Shown piece after piece: positions 309 through 28,532 of a stretch of 33,757 nucleotides of DNA. A program made the position numbers and the translations under genes. The stretch is from Nanobdellota archaeon (GTDB lineage Archaea; Nanobdellota; Nanobdellia; Pacearchaeales; GW2011-AR1), in contig DAOWGX010000029.1 in NCBI GenBank assembly GCA_030641715.1, positions 1 through 33,757 on the forward strand. Direction: 5' to 3'. Within the stretch, counting starts at the first letter, position 1. The number at the start of each line of letters is the position of its first letter. Under the pieces are notes generated by a model. It was not told the DNA's origin, ran no database searches, and saw only the letters and a program-made list of their open reading frames with translations.

Positions 309-1193
309 TTATTTTTTCCCAATTTCAAATTTATCCATAAACCTATATAGTGCCGAAAGACTCACCCCAATCTTATCTGCAATTTCCCGGGGAAACAACC
401 CATCCTCCCAATAACATTTTTTAACAAAATCTACTATATCAATCTTCCTTTTATATTCAAAATCATAAAAATTCCTTCCCACCTTATTTCTCCTTTCCTG
501 ATCTAAAAAATTCTTCCTTGCCTCAATCATCTTTTCATATTTTCTTCCAAGCATTAAATCCTCGCTATCTAAAGAATCATATAAAAATTCCAAAATCTTG
601 TTCGCATTAACTGAATAATACTCTAACTGATAACAACAACTCATCCCACCATTCTTCATTTTCTTTTCTCTTTTTCTAAGATTATAACCTTTCAATCCCA
701 GCCTCGAAACCAAAGCCTCAGCCAACTTCAACATAAATCCATAACTCCCATTTGAAAAACCAACACAAATCTCCTTGCCTCCATTATCTCTAATCCTTGA
801 TACAATCCACCCATCACCATCCAAAAATCCTCTAATAAAATCTCGCAAATAATCTTTAGGAACTTTAGGAAATATCAAAATCTTTTTCTTATTAGGAACT
901 ATTCCTAACTTCTTAATATCATCCAATATTATTCTATTTGAAATTCTCAGTCTATAAGACCCTTCTCCTTTTGATAACGGATAATTCGACTCCATTGTCA
1001 TATTAAAAGATTCCAACAATTCCATGTTAGATACATATTTATCAGATAAATCCCAAGATAAAGTCCTCCCATGAACATTACCATCTGCACAAATAAAACC
1101 TAAAATATAAGCCATCCTCGAAGACCATTTCTTAAAAAAATGTTTATTTATATCATATAACCTTTTCCCAGATTTTACAGTTCCCATCTTCAT
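309..1193 (-). CDS. Free-standing LAGLIDADG homing endonuclease with C-terminal HTH
   Basis: 294 residues from ATG 1193. Two LAGLIDADG motifs are visible: YILGFICADGN near residues 30-40 and DFIRGFLDGDGW near 120-131. This is the layout of a single-chain (pseudodimeric) endonuclease, and both motifs keep the acidic residue. The last 50 residues (IVDFVKKCY...PREIADKIGVSLSALYRFM) look like a helix-turn-helix, which would add DNA contacts. It is not inside an intron or intein visible here. An upstream in-frame ATG at 1214 exists, but the TATA box TTTATAA at 1214-1220 covers it; ATG 1193 lies 24 nt from that box, as in a leaderless transcript. The gene lies 6 nt before the UDG start, so it may have been inserted into the UDG promoter region. 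Target site unknown. Confidence 0.85.
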   Translation of the reverse strand: MKMGTVKSGKRLYDINKHFFKKWSSRMAYILGFICADGNVHGRTLSWDLSDKYVSNMELLESFNMTMESNYPLSKGEGSYRLRISNRIILDDIKKLGIVPNKKKILIFPKVPKDYLRDFIRGFLDGDGWIVSRIRDNGGKEICVGFSNGSYGFMLKLAEALVSRLGLKGYNLRKREKKMKNGGMSCCYQLEYYSVNANKILEFLYDSLDSEDLMLGRKYEKMIEARKNFLDQERRNKVGRNFYDFEYKRKIDIVDFVKKCYWEDGLFPREIADKIGVSLSALYRFMDKFEIGKK

Positions 1194-1213
1194 ATTTCCC
1201 AGGAGATATAACA

Positions 1214-1220
1214 TTATAAA
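1214..1220 (-). promoter_or_regulatory. TATA box for the homing endonuclease / UDG pair
   Basis: The minus strand reads GGTTTATAATG. The box is centred about 24 nt before ATG 1193, which suits a leaderless archaeal transcript and fixes the start of the endonuclease gene. Confidence 0.55.
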
Positions 1221-1288: not shown

Positions 1289-4200
1289 CTATTTCTTCTT
1301 AAAATAAACAACAGCCCCGACAACTGCCATGAGAAGAACTAAACCACCTACAAGCCACCACATCCAAGACTTCTTCGCCTCCTCGACGACTTCCGCAATA
1401 CTATCCCCAATACTATCAATCAAAGAGTCCCCATCGCCTCCAGTAATCTCCCCCTCAGGAATCTCCTCAGAAATCGTTTTCATCAAAAGCTCAGCACCAC
1501 CTCCACTAATAGAATTCAACTTAACCGAAAAGTCATAAACATTATCACCATCAAGCTCGAACTTCACCTCATCACCAATAAAAAGCGTCTTTGTCTGAGG
1601 TTCAGAACTAATAGTTATATTAACACTATTCTCTCCGACAGAATCAACATTAAGCGTATGATTCTCACTATCCACACTAAACTTGACCTTATAATTCCTC
1701 CGAAGAATCACAGTATATCCCTCACTAAGTTTCTCCGCTGTAGGATTGTATGTAGGAGTTCCACCCCCACCACCAGAAGAAGAACCATCATCACTAGGAG
1801 TCGTCGTCACCGTAGTCGCACTACCAGTTATGCTCGGCTCCGTCCCCGAAAAATGAGGCAACCTAACCCAAATTCGATTACTTGTTGTATTGATATAACA
1901 AGGATTCGTTGCATTAAACTCCGACACATTTGTCCCACAAATATTATCTCCAATCAAAGTCGCCCACTCAGACGAACGAGCTGAATAATGAGAATAATTC
2001 GCCGCCAACAAAGTCCCATTCGTCCCATTCAACGACGTATCCCAAATCGGACTGCTCCAACTTTCATCATACAACTTAGGAATACTTAAATTAACATCCG
2101 CACTCTCATTCAAACCCGCCACAGACGAACTCCCCTCGGTGTAAGGCATCGAAATCAAAATATAATCATAAATCGTCGGACCATTAGAACCGAACTTCAA
2201 GGCAGACTCAAAACCACTCGAAGTGGACTCACTCGTCCCGCTTTCAAACTCCCCACTAGGAGGACCCGAAGCAAGCAAATCAACATTAACATAATGAATT
2301 ATAATCCCCGTGCTTAGCAGACCCATCCTAAAACTCAATGACCCGCCGCCAACAACTGCATTCAAAGGATTAAACTCGCTGAGGTTAGCAGAACTCGTAG
2401 CAACACAGCCCACAGAAGGGTTAGGAACATCACAGGTAGAATTCGAAATATACAAACCAATCTGCACCCCGCTAATAGAAGCCCCATCGGTAGCACCTGG
2501 ACTAAACTCACTCATAGTCACATTAGGATTCGTCTGAATATCCAAACCAGTTTTAATACTAACCCTCCTCGGTGCATAAGTCTGAGAATACACATTCATC
2601 TCCTTAATCCCCTCATCCCCTGGCATACTCAACAAAGGAATCGAAAAACTCCCACTACTACTCGAAATATCCTCCATAAACGTAAACTCCACACAACCAT
2701 AATCCGAATAATCAACGCCAATTTCTATATGAACCGACATATTTTGTAAAATATCACTACTTGCATTAACCAAATTAAAAGTCTGCTTAGTAAGATTAAC
2801 TATATGGTTACTTCCATCCATAGAATCAGACATATTAATTATCGAACTGGTATTCCCCAAAAAATCATACATCGTAAAATTCAAAGCCTCGTTAGCCGCA
2901 TCAACCGTAATATTTCTATAGCTTCCATAATAAGTAGAACCATTTTCAGCAACCGCCAAAAGCAAATATTTCACAGTCTCCATCGCAGAATAAGGTAAGG
3001 TGATATTATAAAATCCTGACGAAACATTATACTGATCACTCAAATTTAAAGGTCCGGTCGCGTTACTCCTCCACGCACTCGCATTATAAGGCAAACCTCC
3101 CCGAGTCATCCCAATCATATCCGACGGCTCCAATAGATAAGGCACAATAGTAAAATTATCCCAGCCCGCAATACCCGACTTATTAATATAACCCGAAACC
3201 CACGAAAAACTTTCACTAACATTAAACTGCTTACTCAAAACCTTCGTTGTATAATTATACTTAGACAGACTTCCAATATCATAATCCACCGTCGCCCCCG
3301 AAAAATTATTCCAGTCATAACTCACTGGAACAAACTGATTTGTAGAATCGCCATCAGCCGGCCAAACCATAATAGAATAATTCCTATCTCGAGGAACATA
3401 AACTAAAGCACCAGAAGCCGAAGTATTAGAACTCATAGAAACCTCATAACCGAGCTTAGTATCCTTAATCATATACCCAAAAGGAATTAAACTACCTGTC
3501 GCATTAACCGCAGTTACATTTATTGTCCCCGCCTCTTTCAAATAAAAATTAACGTCCGACAAAGCTGAGAACTGAGCATAAGGAAATACGGGAAGCACCT
3601 GCCCGACATAATCAACCGCCCCTGTCGAAACATTCGCATGAGTAATAACCGATTTATACATATAACTCTCATAACTTAAACCCGCCTCGATAAAAGTATT
3701 AAATACTCCAGTCACACCAGAATTAGAAGAATTCGAACCCAACAGCGTAGGACCCTGTGCACCCATTGTCCAAAGAGTAATATTTACAACAGAATTATTC
3801 AATACCACCCCATTGGCATCCATCACAGTCCCGTTAAAATTCCAACCAATTTTTGCACTAAGAGGAAGATAATCTCTGCTATCACTACTACTTCCAACCA
3901 CATCATATCGAGAATCACAAAAATAATCGCCATTCAAATTCGTGCAAGTATCACTATATCCATTCCCATTGTCATTCGTCCAAAAGTTCCCCCCGATATA
4001 AGTCTTGCCAACAATATTTGTCGGAGTAGAATTCGTCGTGTTAAAATAACTAACATCGGAGCCTACCCAGTTAACTCCCGAACCGCTCGTCGACGTATTA
4101 AAAATATTATTATAAAAACTATGATTTGCAGCAGTCAAAAGATGAATAACATAAGAATCCGATTTCCCTGTTTTAATTATATTACCCGACAAAATAGCAT

Positions 4201-21496: not shown

Positions 21497-22417
21497 TTAA
21501 GGAATTGTTTTAAATCTAAAATTATACAAAACCCAATTGAATAATAATAAAATTAAACTGCCAATTAACAAATAAATCGAAATATTCAACGAAACATTAG
21601 TAATCGTTTTTTCAAATTCAAAAATAATCTCATCTAATGCCTCTGCATCTTGAGCACTAAAAAACCTGCCACCAGTATTGAATGCCAGCGCCTTCAAAAA
21701 ATCCTCATCAAGTTTTGAGATAACACCTAAATTACTCTTCCCTCCCTCAATAGTACCCACCGCAATCGTATTAATAATAATATTTCTCTTAGTAGCATAA
21801 GTTATAATCTTGTCTACACCTCCTACATTTGACTGACCGTCAGTTATCAGAATCAGAGATTTCATTTTTCTTGTTCCGAAAATTTCATTCGCACCTATTA
21901 CGGCATTGTAAATATTTGTCCCGCTAACATCTCCAAAGTTAACATTATCAATAGCCATTTTTGCTTTTAATTTCGAAGCATCCAATTCCTGCATAACAAT
22001 CGCATCCCCTGAAAACCCCATTACCCCTATTTCCACCAATGGAAGTTTATCAACAAATTTGACGGCAAAACTTTTCGCTGCCTCCAATCTATTCGGAAGA
22101 ATATCCGTTGCAGCCATACTCTCAGAATTATCTATAGTAAAAACATAAGAAAAAGAACCTGACCTTGTTTCAAGAACGACAGTCATACCTGCAATCCCCA
22201 AAACCAACAAACCTACTATCACAAGATTTAAATAAAGAACAACAAAATTTCTGGAAAAAATTTCTCCACCTGAGATTCGTTTCATTGCCTCAAAATTAGG
22301 AAAAACCAACGACCTCCTTTTATTATAAAGCCCCCCTAAAAAATAGATTAAGATAAAAATAGGAATCGATAATAAAAGCAACAAAAATTGAGGATGTAAA
22401 AATGACGCTTGCATCAT
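21497..22417 (-). CDS. BatA-like membrane von Willebrand factor A protein
   Basis: 306 residues. An N-terminal membrane helix (FLLLLLSIPIFILIYFLGG), a second helix near residue 60 (LYLNLVIVGLLVLGIAGM), a vWA domain, and a C-terminal helix (YLLIGSLILLLFNWVLYNF). This is the BatA/BatB layout. The MIDAS metal site looks whole: DNSES (DxSxS), the Thr of SGTNIY, and the Asp of LITDGQSNVGG. Such proteins work with MoxR ATPases and DUF58 partners in assembly or maturation of other proteins, usually at the membrane. The start ATG overlaps the DUF58 stop by 4 nt, so translation is coupled. Last gene of the operon. Confidence 0.88.
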   Translation of the reverse strand: MMQASFLHPQFLLLLLSIPIFILIYFLGGLYNKRRSLVFPNFEAMKRISGGEIFSRNFVVLYLNLVIVGLLVLGIAGMTVVLETRSGSFSYVFTIDNSESMAATDILPNRLEAAKSFAVKFVDKLPLVEIGVMGFSGDAIVMQELDASKLKAKMAIDNVNFGDVSGTNIYNAVIGANEIFGTRKMKSLILITDGQSNVGGVDKIITYATKRNIIINTIAVGTIEGGKSNLGVISKLDEDFLKALAFNTGGRFFSAQDAEALDEIIFEFEKTITNVSLNISIYLLIGSLILLLFNWVLYNFRFKTIP

Positions 22418-23295
22418 TTTCTTTTAGCCCTCTGTTTTAAAAAAGAGACCAGGGGAACAACAAACGACTTATCAGTTGTCAATCCAAGCAAATCTATATT
22501 CGACTCTAAAAAAAGTTCTTCTACAAGACGCTTTTGCCTGAGTGTTGAAATACCGTATCTCGCAGAATCAATTTTTGGGTCAACAAGAATTTGATTATTT
22601 GAATAAGGATCCTCTAAAACTAACGGAGACATATTCGATGGGAGTCCCTCATCTAAAAGGTCCTTCACCATAATTGCAAAAGTCTCAAATTTAGCAGAAA
22701 GTACTTTCAGAGGTTCCCCACAATTTTTATTCAAATGAATGAAATCGGAAACAAGAATAATCGCAGAAGAAGATTTTATCAATTTCAACAAAAACTCAAT
22801 CATGTTTTCAAAATTAAAATTCCCCCTATAAAGTGCTAAATCAGATAAACAACTGTTTATCAGATAAATCTGGTTTGTTGAATTGGATGGCGGGAGAACT
22901 TTAACAGCCTTATCTGTCCACATAATTAAACCGACATTATCGTTTGAATTAAGCACGAGATGACTAAGAGCTGCAACAACTTCCGCCGCATATTCTGATT
23001 TTAATTTATCCGAAGAGCCAAACATCATGCTGTTACTCACATCAACTACAAAATAAACATCCATATCTCTCTCTTCAATATACTGCCTGGCCAAAAGATT
23101 ATTTGCTCTCAGACTTGCTTTCCAATCAATGTCAGAAGCATCTTCGCCAGGTCCAAATTCCCTGTAGTGGTCAAACTCCAAACCCCTACCTCTAAAAATA
23201 GTTCTATATAAAATCCTCTTAAGCTGGAATTTTTTCATAACGCTCTCAAATTCAGATATAGCGTGAGCAAAATCAATTTTTAGTTTCTGTTCCAT
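22414..23295 (-). CDS. DUF58 protein with vWA-type domain
   Basis: 293 residues from ATG 23295. It has the DUF58 signature RGRGLEFDHYREFGPGEDAS followed by DIDWKASLRAN, and then a vWA-like domain with a DVSNS motif that could bind a metal. No membrane helix is seen. DUF58 proteins are the usual partner between MoxR and the BatA-like proteins. ATG 23295 is chosen because GGAGG lies 10 nt upstream; a TTG at 23316 would put that sequence inside the coding region. A hairpin that includes the GGAGG precedes the gene, and an internal TATA-like box (23361-23370) suggests some separate expression from moxR. It overlaps the vWA gene by 4 nt. Confidence 0.88.
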   Translation of the reverse strand: MEQKLKIDFAHAISEFESVMKKFQLKRILYRTIFRGRGLEFDHYREFGPGEDASDIDWKASLRANNLLARQYIEERDMDVYFVVDVSNSMMFGSSDKLKSEYAAEVVAALSHLVLNSNDNVGLIMWTDKAVKVLPPSNSTNQIYLINSCLSDLALYRGNFNFENMIEFLLKLIKSSSAIILVSDFIHLNKNCGEPLKVLSAKFETFAIMVKDLLDEGLPSNMSPLVLEDPYSNNQILVDPKIDSARYGISTLRQKRLVEELFLESNIDLLGLTTDKSFVVPLVSFLKQRAKRK

Positions 23296-23306
23296 TTTTA
23301 TCTCTC

Positions 23307-23370
23307 CTCCATACAAAATGGAGTATGATAGTTGTTCGCAACTTTCTTTTCCATTTTTATTTATTAAATA
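23307..23370 (-). promoter_or_regulatory. Internal promoter and hairpin leader of the DUF58-vWA pair
   Basis: The TATA-like TATTTAATAA lies at 23361-23370. About 25 nt later begins a short leader with two hairpins on the minus strand: GTTG-cgaa-CAAC (23331-23342) and CTCCAT-tttgt-ATGGAG (23307-23323). The 3' arm of the second includes most of the GGAGG ribosome-binding site of DUF58, so its folding would hide the site. Confidence 0.4.
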
Positions 23371-24324
23371 CTATGGAGCACTGATTTTTTCTAAAACAGA
23401 TTTTATTATTTCCTCTGTTGAAATTTTTTTCGCTTCTGCTTCATAGTTTAAAATAATCCTGTGTCTCAAAATATCAAAAACAACCTTTTGAACATCGACC
23501 GGAATAACATAATCCCTGCCATTTATTAATGCCTCCGCCTTAGAAGAAATAAATAAAGCAATCGATGCCCTCGGGCTTGCCCCATAATCAATATATTTTG
23601 CAAATTCAAAATCAGGACTTCTTGTCTCGCTGACAATTCTTACAATATAATTCTGAATAGCACTCGAGCTAAACACCTCCTTTACTCTTTCCTGAAGATT
23701 TATAATTTTCTCCGGAGACAAAACACTTTTCAGTTCATAATCCTCAAATTTTTTTAGGGTGATATTTTTATCTAAGATATCTATCTCTTCTTTAAATTCG
23801 GGATGTGAAATACGCAATTTAAACAAAAACCTATCAATCTGGGCTTCAGGAAGAGAATAAACTCCTTTAGTCTCTATAGGATTCTCCGTAGCCATCACAA
23901 AAAAAGGTTGCGGCAGGGAATGTGTTTCTTTTGCAATTGTAACCATGTTCTCCTGCATTGCCTCCAACAGTGCTGACTGTGTTTTTGGCGGTGCCCTATT
24001 AATCTCGTCGGCAATAACAAAATTAGTAAAAAGAGGTCCCTTTAAAACTTCAAAACCTTTCTTAGGAGTATAACTCAAAATACCCGTCAAGTCAGATGGA
24101 AGCAAATCAACAGTAAACTGAATCCTTTTCACATCGCAGCCCATCACCTTCGCTATAGCCTTAACAATCAAAGTCTTCGCAGTTCCCGGAACTCCCTCAA
24201 CCAAAACATGACCATTACATAAAATCGCCCTGATAATCGCCCTTATAACTTCCTGCTGACCCACAACAATCTTGGACATCTCTTTCTCTATTTCCCCAAC
24301 AGCCTCTTTAATTTCTCCATCCAT
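23371..24324 (-). CDS. MoxR-family AAA+ ATPase
   Basis: 317 residues, normal for the family. Walker A GVPGTAKT, Walker B FVIADEINRAPPKTQSALLEAM, sensor 1 FFVMATENPIETKG, then SLPEAQIDRFLFK, and a C-terminal lid with YGASPRASIALF. MoxR ATPases act as chaperones for partner complexes and are typically encoded with DUF58 and vWA proteins, as here. The start ATG is 6 nt after the stop of the giant surface protein gene, so the two are probably on one transcript. The client is unknown; the co-transcribed surface protein is the natural candidate, but MoxR is cytoplasmic, so contact would have to pass through the membrane-spanning vWA protein or the surface protein's short tail. Confidence 0.95.
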   Translation of the reverse strand: MDGEIKEAVGEIEKEMSKIVVGQQEVIRAIIRAILCNGHVLVEGVPGTAKTLIVKAIAKVMGCDVKRIQFTVDLLPSDLTGILSYTPKKGFEVLKGPLFTNFVIADEINRAPPKTQSALLEAMQENMVTIAKETHSLPQPFFVMATENPIETKGVYSLPEAQIDRFLFKLRISHPEFKEEIDILDKNITLKKFEDYELKSVLSPEKIINLQERVKEVFSSSAIQNYIVRIVSETRSPDFEFAKYIDYGASPRASIALFISSKAEALINGRDYVIPVDVQKVVFDILRHRIILNYEAEAKKISTEEIIKSVLEKISAP

Positions 24325-24330
24325 TACACT

Positions 24331-27300
24331 TTAGATATAATCTCCCCCTTCAGGTTTACTAAGTTTTATTCTTTTATAAATATATATAATAATCCCAAGA
24401 ACGAAGACAAACAAAACTGAAAAAACTAAATAATAAAAAACAGAACCCATTATATATTCCCCCCTATTCACATTCTCATTCAAGGCTATCGCCTCCTTAC
24501 ATGCACTAATTGCCTCTTCAGATTTTTTTAATGCCTCCTCTATTTTTCCCTGTTCAAACAATTCCTTAGACTCCTCAACAATCTCAGTTAATTCTATACA
24601 CTGGGGATTCTCTGCAACGAATTTTTCCGTAAAAATAATCCTGTTTTCCACCTCTGTCACGTTTGTTTTATTTAAATAAATATAAAAATACGCCCAGTCA
24701 GAAAATTTTGGTATATTCACATCTGCAAAAATTCCCGCCTTATACTTCCCTGACCGGTCTGTGTTTGCATAAATATTCATCGTAATATTTTTCGACTCTC
24801 CCAATAATAATTCGTCGATATAATCCTCGGCAAAAGAAACGCTAACATCCCCAGTCCATTCATTGTTAAAACTAATTTCGCTGGTTAAGTTAATTCCCCT
24901 CAATGCCACCAGGCCCTCGTTCTTTATCAACAAAGGAATCTGTATATGAGGCTCCCCGCGAATCATAACATCGCCATTAGGGAATATTATCTTTAAAGAA
25001 TAATACTTAATTTCAGTCCTCGACCCGCTGCCTCCCGAAGTTGGCACTGGCGTCGTCGAAGGAGTTCTAAATGTTACCGTAAAATTATTACTCGTTGCAT
25101 TGCTCAAAGCATAACTTGTCCCATTATAATCTGTCGCAGTTATATTCAACATCTCGATAGTCGCCCTATCTGGTGCAGGTAGTGTTAAAACCCATCCACT
25201 CGAAACGCTTGCCGAAGGAGAACTGATTCTACTACCTGAAACATTGCTCGAAATCGTAAAATTAACTGTCTGGTTATAATACGTATCATCATAATCTATA
25301 TCCGAAAAAAACCCGCTAACATCTACAGTAATCGGCTGATCATAATATCCTAATTGGGACTCTATCGTCCCGCTAAAATTAACCGGAGAATTTGTATGAC
25401 TTATGTTAGTGCTCCAATTTACTGTAGTATTTAATTCAGTCCTGTTTATAAGATTAAGATTTGAAGGATATGTAATTAAGGTTAAATTTGTAAAATTACC
25501 ATAACCCTCGTCGGTAAAATTCGGTGTAAACGCCCAGGTTAAATTTGTATTGTTCCCATAATAACTTAAATTATATCTTAAAACATTATCTATATAAAAT
25601 TCATAAGTCAGATTATCGCCGGCCGAATGGTTCACCCTGAAAGTTAAATTCGTTGTTTCATCCTCTTTCAAAGAAAAATTTTCAGACAAAGAAGGAAAAG
25701 TTACATTCGGCAGGTCATAGACAAACAGCCAGAAATTATCCGAAGCAGTATTATTCGAAGAATCATTTACAGTTATATTTATCTGATATTTTCCTGCATA
25801 AGACTGATTAAAAGTTACATTCAAAATTCCGGAAGTTGTGTTAAAAATAGTTTCATGATCATTTATAAAATCCGCACCATAAGTAAAGTTATATGAAAAT
25901 TTTAAACCTCCGTCACTATCATTCCCATCCTCCTCATCGCTTGCATTTATATCAAAATAAAAACTTCTATTCACCGCAGATGATTGATTCGTAAGATTCA
26001 TTAAAACAGGGGCATCATCCACAGCCGTTATAGTGAGATTAAAACTTGTCCAGTTACTTTCATTGCTCATATCCGTAACATTTATAGTGATTGTATAGTT
26101 CCCCACATTACTATTTTCGGGGGTAAAGCTTGCTAAATAAGTTGAGAGATTACTTTCATCAGCAGGCACAGACAATATAAAACTAAAATTAACTTTTTCC
26201 CCGACTACAGTAATATTTTCAATTATCGTCATAACATCCAAGGTTTCATTATAAACTGATGTATTTATTATTAAAAAATCATTATCATAAATACTGACAT
26301 CAATCTGACCTAAACTTGATTCATTGACCGTTTTCTCAGTATTTATAATAGAGCTCCCATCAACCCAAGGCGGACTGTTTATATTCGTAATGTTAAAAAC
26401 AAAACTTGTTGTATTTGACAAATAACCGTCGCTGACAGTTACATTAAATTCCCAATAACCGACATCTTGCTTCCAAAGAGTAAAATTAATCATCCCTGCC
26501 GAAGTAAGATCAAAATTTCGAAACGCCGTAGAATTCGCAAAACTTAAAACATCACCGTCGCTGTCGTTTGCCCAGTAATCCCCGGTTAAATTAGTCAGAT
26601 TCAGAAAAAAAGATTCCGTTGTCCCCGCTGTTGAATTAACAGTTAAATTAAAATGATAAGAAGTGTGACTCCAATAAGGAAAATGATTACTAAGAATTGT
26701 TAGATTAAAAGTTTCATAATCTATCTCATCGTCCTCATCTCTCACCGTGACATTAATTGTATAATTCCCAACTTCACTCTCATTCGCTGTAAATTCTATC
26801 TTTGCCGTAGTTTCATTTGTAAGTTTTCCTCCAGTAATAACAGGCATTAATAAAATATCCAAAGCAAAATCAGAAAGACTCAGGGACTGGCTCAAATTTG
26901 ACCGGTTCAAGATTTCATACGTAAAATTTACCGTCTCATTATAACTTCCCTGTTTGTCCGGAATAACTAAATCGCCGTCGGAGACACTTAGATTAATCCT
27001 CTCCCCATTAAGTACAGAGGTAGTAACATCACTTATACTCCCAAGTTCGGGCACATCATTAAGAGAATCATTCCGAACAACATTAATATAAATTGATTCC
27101 GTTTCACTCTCTCCCGACGTAAAATCATCAACACTGATATTAACCGTCCAGTTTCCTATTTCCGTTTTCTGAGGCGTTATATTAATTTCAATCGTCTTCA
27201 TAAAATTAGAAGCATTTGTCTGATTAAAACCATAAAACCAACTCTCGTTTTCAACATTATAAGAAGGACTATAATTTCTCAAAAAAGCCAGACTCGAAAT

Positions 27301-28209
27301 ATTTAATTCGTCTTCAGACCCTTTCGTAGTTATATTAATATAACAGACAAATGTTTTATCTTCTGTCAACGTCTGACCCGTACAGTTCGAAACATTAATC
27401 GTAAGCGACGAGAGAACATTAAACTCAACAATTTGATAACTAGTTTTATTCGTTTCATTGTACCCGGGTTCACAATAACCCGAAGTGCAGTCATAATTCA
27501 CCGCGGCATCCATAACAGAAACATTCCCCCAGTATACTCCTACATCATTTAAACTCGGCGTAAAATTTGCCAGAGTAGACGTATTCGTAACACTTGTTAA
27601 ATTAAAAATAGAACAATTTTCACCAGCACCTCTGCCACTCCAATCCGCATGAGTACAATTATTAAAAAAACTAATATTAAAATACAACGGATAATGCTCT
27701 TCCTCGTCGGTTGCATTTACATATTCATAAAAATTTTCTCCACTAGATAAATTGTATGTTGAACTAAGATTTGTAAATTCTGGGAAGTCGTTGGTTGCAT
27801 TAACGATGAATTCGAAAGTTTCAACCGTAGCCCCCCCACTTATATTAGTGGCTTGTATTGGGATTTCAAAAAAACCTGTTTGATTATCATAAGTTGCATT
27901 AATTGTCAGATTTCCAGTATCCACATTATAAATCTGTATCCAATTTGAAATAGTCGCCTCAGTAGTTGAAAATCTTCCACTAAGGTTAGTCCAATAAATA
28001 GTCCCCTCAGAATCTATAGAAAAATTAACATCATCACTAAACCCAGTAATATTAGCACTTAAATTATGGTAATAAATAGTATCTTCAGAAGCAGTATAAT
28101 TGACCTCATCCCCAACCCAATCAGGAGCACTTGCAAAAACGAACACCACCATTAAGACTGCCAAAACTACCCCAATCAAAACCCAATTCCCCCTACCCAA
28201 ATTACTCAT
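24331..28209 (-). CDS. Giant glycosylation-rich Ig/cadherin-like surface protein with BatD-like C-terminus
   Basis: 1292 residues from ATG 28209, which has GGAGGTG about 6 nt upstream. A signal peptide (NWVLIGVVLAVLMVVFVFASA) is followed by a row of Ig/cadherin-like domains of roughly 110 residues, marked by junctions such as VNATNDFPEF, ITNINSPPWV and ITAVDDAPVL. I count about 100 N-x-S/T sequons, so a heavily N-glycosylated ectodomain is likely. After a PVPTSGGSGS linker comes a NEW3-like beta domain (YYSLKIIFPNGDV...), a helical hairpin like a single TPR (LFEQGKIEEALKKSEEAI, about 1210-1230), one membrane helix and a short KLSKPEGGDYI tail. Ig-like domains plus one helix, encoded with MoxR/DUF58/vWA, recall BatD. 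The start overlaps the AbrB-like gene (ATGAGTAA). Confidence 0.85.
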   Translation of the reverse strand: MSNLGRGNWVLIGVVLAVLMVVFVFASAPDWVGDEVNYTASEDTIYYHNLSANITGFSDDVNFSIDSEGTIYWTNLSGRFSTTEATISNWIQIYNVDTGNLTINATYDNQTGFFEIPIQATNISGGATVETFEFIVNATNDFPEFTNLSSTYNLSSGENFYEYVNATDEEEHYPLYFNISFFNNCTHADWSGRGAGENCSIFNLTSVTNTSTLANFTPSLNDVGVYWGNVSVMDAAVNYDCTSGYCEPGYNETNKTSYQIVEFNVLSSLTINVSNCTGQTLTEDKTFVCYINITTKGSEDELNISSLAFLRNYSPSYNVENESWFYGFNQTNASNFMKTIEINITPQKTEIGNWTVNISVDDFTSGESETESIYINVVRNDSLNDVPELGSISDVTTSVLNGERINLSVSDGDLVIPDKQGSYNETVNFTYEILNRSNLSQSLSLSDFALDILLMPVITGGKLTNETTAKIEFTANESEVGNYTINVTVRDEDDEIDYETFNLTILSNHFPYWSHTSYHFNLTVNSTAGTTESFFLNLTNLTGDYWANDSDGDVLSFANSTAFRNFDLTSAGMINFTLWKQDVGYWEFNVTVSDGYLSNTTSFVFNITNINSPPWVDGSSIINTEKTVNESSLGQIDVSIYDNDFLIINTSVYNETLDVMTIIENITVVGEKVNFSFILSVPADESNLSTYLASFTPENSNVGNYTITINVTDMSNESNWTSFNLTITAVDDAPVLMNLTNQSSAVNRSFYFDINASDEEDGNDSDGGLKFSYNFTYGADFINDHETIFNTTSGILNVTFNQSYAGKYQINITVNDSSNNTASDNFWLFVYDLPNVTFPSLSENFSLKEDETTNLTFRVNHSAGDNLTYEFYIDNVLRYNLSYYGNNTNLTWAFTPNFTDEGYGNFTNLTLITYPSNLNLINRTELNTTVNWSTNISHTNSPVNFSGTIESQLGYYDQPITVDVSGFFSDIDYDDTYYNQTVNFTISSNVSGSRISSPSASVSSGWVLTLPAPDRATIEMLNITATDYNGTSYALSNATSNNFTVTFRTPSTTPVPTSGGSGSRTEIKYYSLKIIFPNGDVMIRGEPHIQIPLLIKNEGLVALRGINLTSEISFNNEWTGDVSVSFAEDYIDELLLGESKNITMNIYANTDRSGKYKAGIFADVNIPKFSDWAYFYIYLNKTNVTEVENRIIFTEKFVAENPQCIELTEIVEESKELFEQGKIEEALKKSEEAISACKEAIALNENVNRGEYIMGSVFYYLVFSVLFVFVLGIIIYIYKRIKLSKPEGGDYI

Positions 28210-28354
28210 CGTCCACCTCCACAATCATTTTCTTCTTATTAACATCAAAACGGATAATAATCTTTTGTCCTTCCCTTAACTCTAAAGTATCTATAACTGC
28301 CTTAGGTATCTTAATCCTATGACCTGTCTGAATACAATTATCCTTAAAAATTAT
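28202..28354 (-). CDS. Small AbrB/SpoVT-type DNA-binding regulator, no canonical start codon
   Basis: About 50 residues ending at TAA 28202-28204. The reading frame gives NCIQTGHRIKIPKAVIDTLE, then LREGQKIIIRFDVNKKKMIV and EVDDE. This is the AbrB/MazE swapped-hairpin fold (R-I-x-I-P-K then L-x-x-G-x-x-I). No ATG, GTG or TTG lies in frame before the motif; the upstream stop is at 28382. Candidates are ATA 28354 (chosen, 28 nt after a TATA box), ATT 28351 or ATC 28363. It overlaps the surface protein gene by 8 nt, and carries that gene's ribosome-binding site, so the two are co-expressed. The likely role is autoregulation and control of the operon; an antitoxin is less likely, as no toxin gene is adjacent. 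Confidence 0.6.
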   Translation of the reverse strand: MIFKDNCIQTGHRIKIPKAVIDTLELREGQKIIIRFDVNKKKMIVEVDDE

Positions 28355-28360
28355 ATCTAC

Positions 28361-28405
28361 GATACTTTTTAAACCCCTTTTTTATACCTAAAAGATACTT
28401 TTTAA
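28361..28405 (-). promoter_or_regulatory. Promoter with tandem 12-bp repeats before the AbrB-surface protein-MoxR operon
   Basis: The plus-strand string gatactttttaa occurs at 28361-28372 and 28394-28405, 33 bp (about three helical turns) apart. A TATA-like TATAAAAAA (minus strand, about 28378-28386) lies between the copies. The repeats could be operators for the AbrB-like protein. The remaining gap up to 28532 is AT-rich with no ORF that I can support. Confidence 0.45.
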
Positions 28406-28532
28406 GGTATTTAAATCTTACTAGATTAATCACCCAAAAATTTCTTCCCTTTCTAATATTATACAATTACAATTAATTCAAAAAATCAATAAACGTACAA
28501 TAACAAAATTGACAATTTCAGGAGTTCTCCCA

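Follow-up and report, generated by a model that had tools for sequence, protein, structure and literature searches.

Can an archaeal gene remain under selection when it offers none of the usual start codons? This question is raised by a short frame on the minus strand of the window, i.e., the whole analyzed stretch of 33,757 nucleotides, which belongs to a 731-kb assembly in 30 contigs (G000) of an uncultivated archaeon. Between the TAA at 28384-28382 and the stop codon TAA at 28204-28202, nothing interrupts the frame, and its 59 codons translate as KRGLKSIVDIIFKDNCIQTGHRIKIPKAVIDTLELREGQKIIIRFDVNKKKMIVEVDDE. There is no ATG, GTG or TTG in it ahead of residue 52, as a first-pass annotation had recognized when it described an AbrB-type gene without a usual start. 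The gene and its start are proposed as follows.

28202..28363, minus strand: AbrB-like autorepressor gene (candidate), 53 codons plus stop, ATC start; ATG-start orthologues, dN/dS versus the sister species
28361..28363, minus strand: proposed start codon ATC; the aligned codon is ATT in the sister species and ATG in 20 other homologues
28374..28377, minus strand: GGGG, possibly a weak ribosome-binding site, 10 nt ahead of the ATC; seen in the sequence, function putative

The profile search that the annotation had recommended gave a divided answer: Pfam PF04014 (MazE/AbrB) matches 14 of the 16 aligned family members (best E 2.3e-6), whereas the window protein is itself a weak match (E 2.4e-4, 21.4 bits), under the gathering cut-off of 24.7 bits. 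The connection to the SpoVT/AbrB-MazE superfamily is made through the aligned members, which share an invariant core around F.D...Q.G.R.KIPKA..DTL. The predicted order of elements is E-E-H-E-E, with a mean pLDDT of 73 for a model made from a single sequence. AbrB-type structures ranked high in a fold search, with Sso7c4, SpoVT, MazE, AbrB and C68 present in its list of matches, but no E value fell under 0.001; a PDB sequence search and an Rfam search of the leader returned no match. Judged by sequence profile and predicted element order, the window protein belongs with AbrB/MazE proteins. Relatives of it were found in 11 of 55 related genomes, at 47-83% identity, nine of them in the same genus. 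The sister species is Candidatus Pacearchaeota isolate RS_3_14 (G004). There is also a paralogous AbrB group (L017, L018, L019 and L020; MKEMIFKDGKIQKG...), the members of which have ATG starts and are sited before other genes.

The genes downstream of the AbrB-like gene, and the signal for the first of them, are listed below.

24331..28209, minus strand: next gene, a large surface protein of 1292 aa with Ig/PKD-like repeats; 8-nt overlap with the AbrB gene
28214..28220, minus strand: GGAGGTG, within the AbrB gene; ribosome-binding site for the surface-protein gene, from sequence
23371..24324, minus strand: MoxR-type AAA ATPase, same operon; PF07726, E 7e-58, linked in relatives
22414..23316, minus strand: DUF58 protein, same operon; PF01882, E 7e-36
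21497..22417, minus strand: VWA-type protein, last gene considered; open frame and recognizable sequence

The overlap (ATGAGTAA, 28209-28202) and the GGAGGTG within the frame are both there as first described, and equivalent purine-rich sites are present in several orthologues. The gene neighborhood is kept across relatives, because in six other species the MoxR gene is found 4-5 kb from the AbrB-like gene on one contig, as it is in the window; the MoxR operon of related Pacearchaeota likewise begins with the AbrB orthologue. An adjacent toxin gene, as in MazEF-type toxin-antitoxin operons, is absent, the neighbors being the surface protein, MoxR, DUF58 and VWA genes. Elsewhere in the window, a 301-aa frame (309-1214, minus strand) has, by eye only, the look of a LAGLIDADG-type homing endonuclease.

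Where would translation of such a gene begin? The first-pass annotation had pointed to ATA/ATT codons, which comparison places three to four codons too far downstream. In 20 orthologues and paralogues, ATG occupies a single position of the alignment, as in M(A/V)EIIFKDNSIQTGHRIKIPKA, and the codon aligned with it is ATC in the window (28363-28361) and ATT in G004. Thus, an AUH codon (AUU, AUC or AUA) occupies the position of the orthologous AUG, with no usual start nearby. The annotation had also named the case that would speak against it, i.e., a relative with an ATG further upstream and a frameshift; this was not seen, and ATG is found at one in-frame codon instead. Translation from some other codon (the GTA just behind, the ATA/ATT three to four codons on, or an upstream start in a different frame combined with a frameshift) is unlikely. 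Such codons do exist: GTA directly follows ATC, ATA/ATT and then ATT come three to four codons later in both species, and an out-of-phase frame led by GTG overlaps the promoter. However, the orthologous ATG aligns without gaps with the ATC/ATT codon, the GTG-led frame begins upstream of the TATA box and should therefore be outside the mRNA, and one out-of-frame TTG is the only usual start codon, whatever the frame, between the expected RNA start and the core.

At this locus, G004 is the closest relative of the window (the MoxR proteins are 86% identical, and all others 70% or less), and for this reason a single ancestral loss of ATG would be the simplest history for the two species. It should be noted that, as these species are sisters, the AUC/AUU start counts as one evolutionary case. 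All genomes in the sample are metagenome assemblies. The ATC could be a sequencing or assembly error: the sequence is known only as an assembly, and the two further AUH cases described below (rubrerythrin and Mre11) also come from one assembly each. An error here is nevertheless highly improbable, because the assemblies of two species deviate from ATG at one position and do so with different bases.

Another possibility is that we are dealing with a pseudogene, in which the frame has stayed open because the start was lost recently, or for the sake of the ribosome-binding site of the next gene. The lack of a usual start codon in both species would fit such decay, as would the finding of no second AbrB-like copy in G000. 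The comparison of G000 with G004 speaks against it. For the AbrB-like gene, dN is 0.08 and dS is about 1.17 (1.1-1.2), so that dN/dS is about 0.07; of the 28 differing sites, 19 are third codon positions, and there are no indels or stops, with a synonymous distance close to 1. Between these species, strong purifying selection acts on this gene without an AUG. The 24 nt 5' of the start codon, GGGG (28374-28377) included, are identical, and 47 of 52 nt agree from the TATA box to the start, compared to 20 of 48 immediately upstream; the leader is more conserved than its surroundings. Decay would in addition require that both sister species had recently, and independently, lost the same base of the same codon. 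As the sequences stand, a dead gene would hardly retain both frame and leader across such a distance, and because of the purifying selection and the identical 24-nt leader we consider decay very unlikely. With decay and sequencing error both unlikely, the comparison suggests initiation at AUC/AUU as the best reading.

The region upstream of the start codon contains the following elements.

28408..28415, minus strand: TATA box TTTAAATA; kept in 21 of 22 upstream regions with one mismatch or none
28394..28405, minus strand: 12-bp repeat TTAAAAAGTATC, first copy (candidate operator half-site); repeat recurs in orthologues
28385..28389, minus strand: half-site AGGTA lying between the two repeat copies, at distances of 11 bp (first half-site) and 22 bp (last half-site)
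28361..28372, minus strand: second copy of TTAAAAAGTATC, ending on the ATC start codon; repeat recurs in orthologues

The TATA box had originally been assigned to GTATAAAA, a TATA-like sequence between the repeats. This sequence is absent from several orthologues and was rejected as a conserved promoter element; the conserved element is TTTAAATA (28415-28408) instead. Given the usual archaeal TATA spacing, the RNA would start near 28385, and its leader would measure about 22 nt. As first noticed, the TTAAAAAGTATC copies are exact and 33 bp apart; when the 125-nt region was shuffled with its dinucleotides kept, 18 of 2000 shuffles produced a repeat of that length. The alignment of upstream regions in related genomes, another check that the annotation had called for, shows conservation of the TATA box and of phased half-sites. 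Counted from the first base of the TATA box, half-sites of the AAGTA type start at 15, 26 and 48 nt in the window, sharing one phase of 11, and this 11-bp phase is kept in nearly every orthologue. Exact direct repeats in eleven promoters have spacings of 33, 33, 44, 33, 22, 33, 22, 33, 11, 55 and 55 bp, so that all promoters with a named repeat (11/11) have a spacing of 11, 22, 33, 44 or 55 bp; among repeats of at least 7 nt, 25 of 42 are at a spacing divisible by 11, versus 8% in shuffles, and, as the orthologues are mutually related, all these spacing counts are non-independent trials. The sequence of the repeat co-varies within a promoter: for example, the repeats of paralogue L020 are TTTCAAAAGAACC, and those of the window are TTAAAAAGTATC. 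The paralogues L017-L020 have their own versions of the half-site (AAGTC, AAGAAC), with the 11-bp phasing mostly kept.

Phased repeats of this kind are what a repressor bound along one side of the helix would be expected to leave. Their autoregulatory look, remarked on from the single sequence, is strengthened by comparison: the repeats lie at the gene's own promoter, have a constant helical phase, and are kept in orthologues. Family and operator pattern together suggest that the AbrB-like protein may bind DNA. When a weight matrix was built without the two AUH species, the AbrB promoter was the top site of the genome, at 35.6 bits, with the next site at 24.3; on account of this difference, the regulator is probably local. 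A second, weaker match is found in both species, with similar sequence, at G000:C14 minus 16805 (24.3 bits) and G004:C50 minus 6990 (19.1 bits), a possible further target.

The last half-site overlaps the start codon ATC, and it is possible, if rather doubtful, that the G of the ancestral ATG was lost as the last base of the phased operator. If so, AUH would be a by-product of selection on DNA binding rather than of selection on expression level. That the last half-site ends on the start codon is in line with such a loss, as are the T or C found at the matching base of the first half-site in most promoters and the exactness of the repeat through the third codon base (12 bp in the window, 8 nt in the sister species). 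In contrast, orthologue L007 retains ATG in the same register, and the rubrerythrin and Mre11 genes have AUH without such an operator. It should be noted that an operator-driven loss concerns why the ATG went, and is compatible with an AUC/AUU-started autorepressor.

Overall, we favor, with a probability of roughly 0.7, an AbrB-like autorepressor with an AUC/AUU start, a phased operator of its own, and low repressor output. At the level of sequence, its support consists of homology, the position of the start, purifying selection, conservation of the leader, and the phasing of the half-sites. The autorepressor would be the first gene of the surface-protein/MoxR/DUF58/VWA operon. Its product would bind the array of AAGTA-type half-sites that begins, in 11-bp phase, immediately downstream of the TATA box and reaches as far as the start codon, and the bound array would shut off the gene's own promoter and hence its own operon. 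Translation would begin at AUC, or AUU in the sister species, at the exact site of the ancestral AUG. These codons, if read as starts as the alignment implies, are expected to initiate poorly and would thus yield little repressor per mRNA, whereas the surface-protein gene, with a strong ribosome-binding site and an AUG of its own, would be well translated. Because AUC/AUU should initiate weakly, the repressor is probably low relative to the surface protein; a low-output role of the start codon would follow.

Several known systems are comparable in part. The infC gene, encoding IF3, starts with ATT in E. coli and with ATC in Streptomyces, and Streptomyces sigR starts with GTC, as shown by experiment (PMC5472188). 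As proposed for the AbrB-like gene, infC is a conserved, self-regulating gene with an AUU/AUC start; however, it is bacterial and regulated in translation through IF3 itself, whereas regulation here appears to be at the level of the promoter. The proposed similarity to sigR is in a non-canonical start, missed by annotation, on a regulator that heads an operon, with the next gene made in excess, and the difference is that sigR encodes a bacterial sigma factor with an experimentally shown start that is GTC and not AUH. To our knowledge, archaea have no IF3. By analogy, the AbrB case may be said to resemble sigR (GTC) and infC (ATT/ATC) in effect, without IF3. Among archaeal regulators, C68 of the Sulfolobus plasmid-virus pSSVx binds adjacent to its own promoter (PMC5569661; PDB 3o27 and 2l66 for C68/Sso7c4), and F55 of virus SSV1 is a repressor acting on tandem repeats that overlap the BRE or RNA start, its own promoter included (PMC5569661). 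C68 and Sso7c4 are small archaeal swapped-hairpin (AbrB-like) DNA-binding proteins, as the window protein is predicted to be, but with another binding motif, other neighbors, low sequence similarity and a fold match that is not significant. F55 shares the tandem repeats at its own promoter but is viral, has a ribbon-helix-helix fold, and recognizes another repeat sequence.

We also surveyed starts in the conserved genes of G000, most of those of G004, and parts of G009 and G001. Initial searches of whole genomes for frames lacking a usual start were overwhelmed by antisense frames and by alignments extended too far; the screen used here required the ATG of a relative at the edge of conservation and was restricted to sense frames with third-position changes. 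Upon inspection, AbrB (in two genomes), a rubrerythrin and an Mre11-like nuclease were left as convincing, the other rows looking like internal methionines or antisense frames. The rubrerythrin frame (locus L187, G000:C4:97315-97836, plus strand) has ATA where its closest orthologue, in G001 and 84% identical, has ATG: AAG ATA GGG AAG ACT GAA versus AAA ATG AGT AAA ACT GAG; the first usual start codon in the open frame is at residue 71. The Mre11-like gene (locus L151, G004:C13 minus, reverse-complement position 3771) has ATC versus ATG in G000 (C10:11753): GTA TAT ACT ATC GTA AAA TTC versus GTA TTT ATT ATG GTA AAA TTC. Its 396-codon frame in G004 is intact, with the first usual start at residue 123; the Mre11 query used for the carrier count was partly hand-composed after the first 20 residues. 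With G009 or G001 as the query, no AUH replacement was found, in samples too small to infer a difference between lineages. A C9 transposase and a C14 DHH-like fragment, both without starts, look broken and were set aside; at G000:C9:5100-6200, an in-frame stop breaks up a transposase-like gene.

Even in the G000/G004 lineage, AUH starts are rare, because 308 conserved genes share a usual start between the two genomes (in G000, 268 ATG, 27 TTG and 13 GTG). Regarding the initiation apparatus, aIF1 is present in four genomes, and there are two tRNAs with anticodon CAT, one of them with an A1-U72 end, as is typical of initiators. Among initiation factors and tRNAs, we saw no alteration that would explain a tolerance of AUH. 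Tentatively, and at somewhat less than even odds, this Pacearchaeota lineage may read AUA, AUC and AUU as starts in several conserved genes, with discrimination looser than believed for archaea, the AbrB codon being one that also ends its own phased operator.

The few well-characterized starts beyond AUG, GUG and UUG, those of infC and sigR, come from bacteria and are controlled by IF3 (PMC5472188). Among 36 triplets of prokaryotic genomes, a switch from AUG to AUU was found in 1 of 61,358 AUG starts (PMC5622118), a figure limited by gene callers, which hide such cases. Archaeal aIF1 has been reported to favor discrimination against non-canonical starts (PMC6237735). AUU and AUC starts are already known in bacteria; what the sequences add is an apparently conserved near-cognate start in an archaeal AbrB-like gene, together with a helically phased putative operator. 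A gene that selection maintains with AUC in an archaeon and AUU in the sister species offers a clean and testable case for archaea, and comparison of start positions can reveal genes that annotation misses. The 11-bp-phased operator would give an archaeal AbrB-like candidate autorepressor a DNA code that is both simple and conserved, and the conserved AUC/AUU suggests that archaea may lastingly use starts that standard gene finders ignore.
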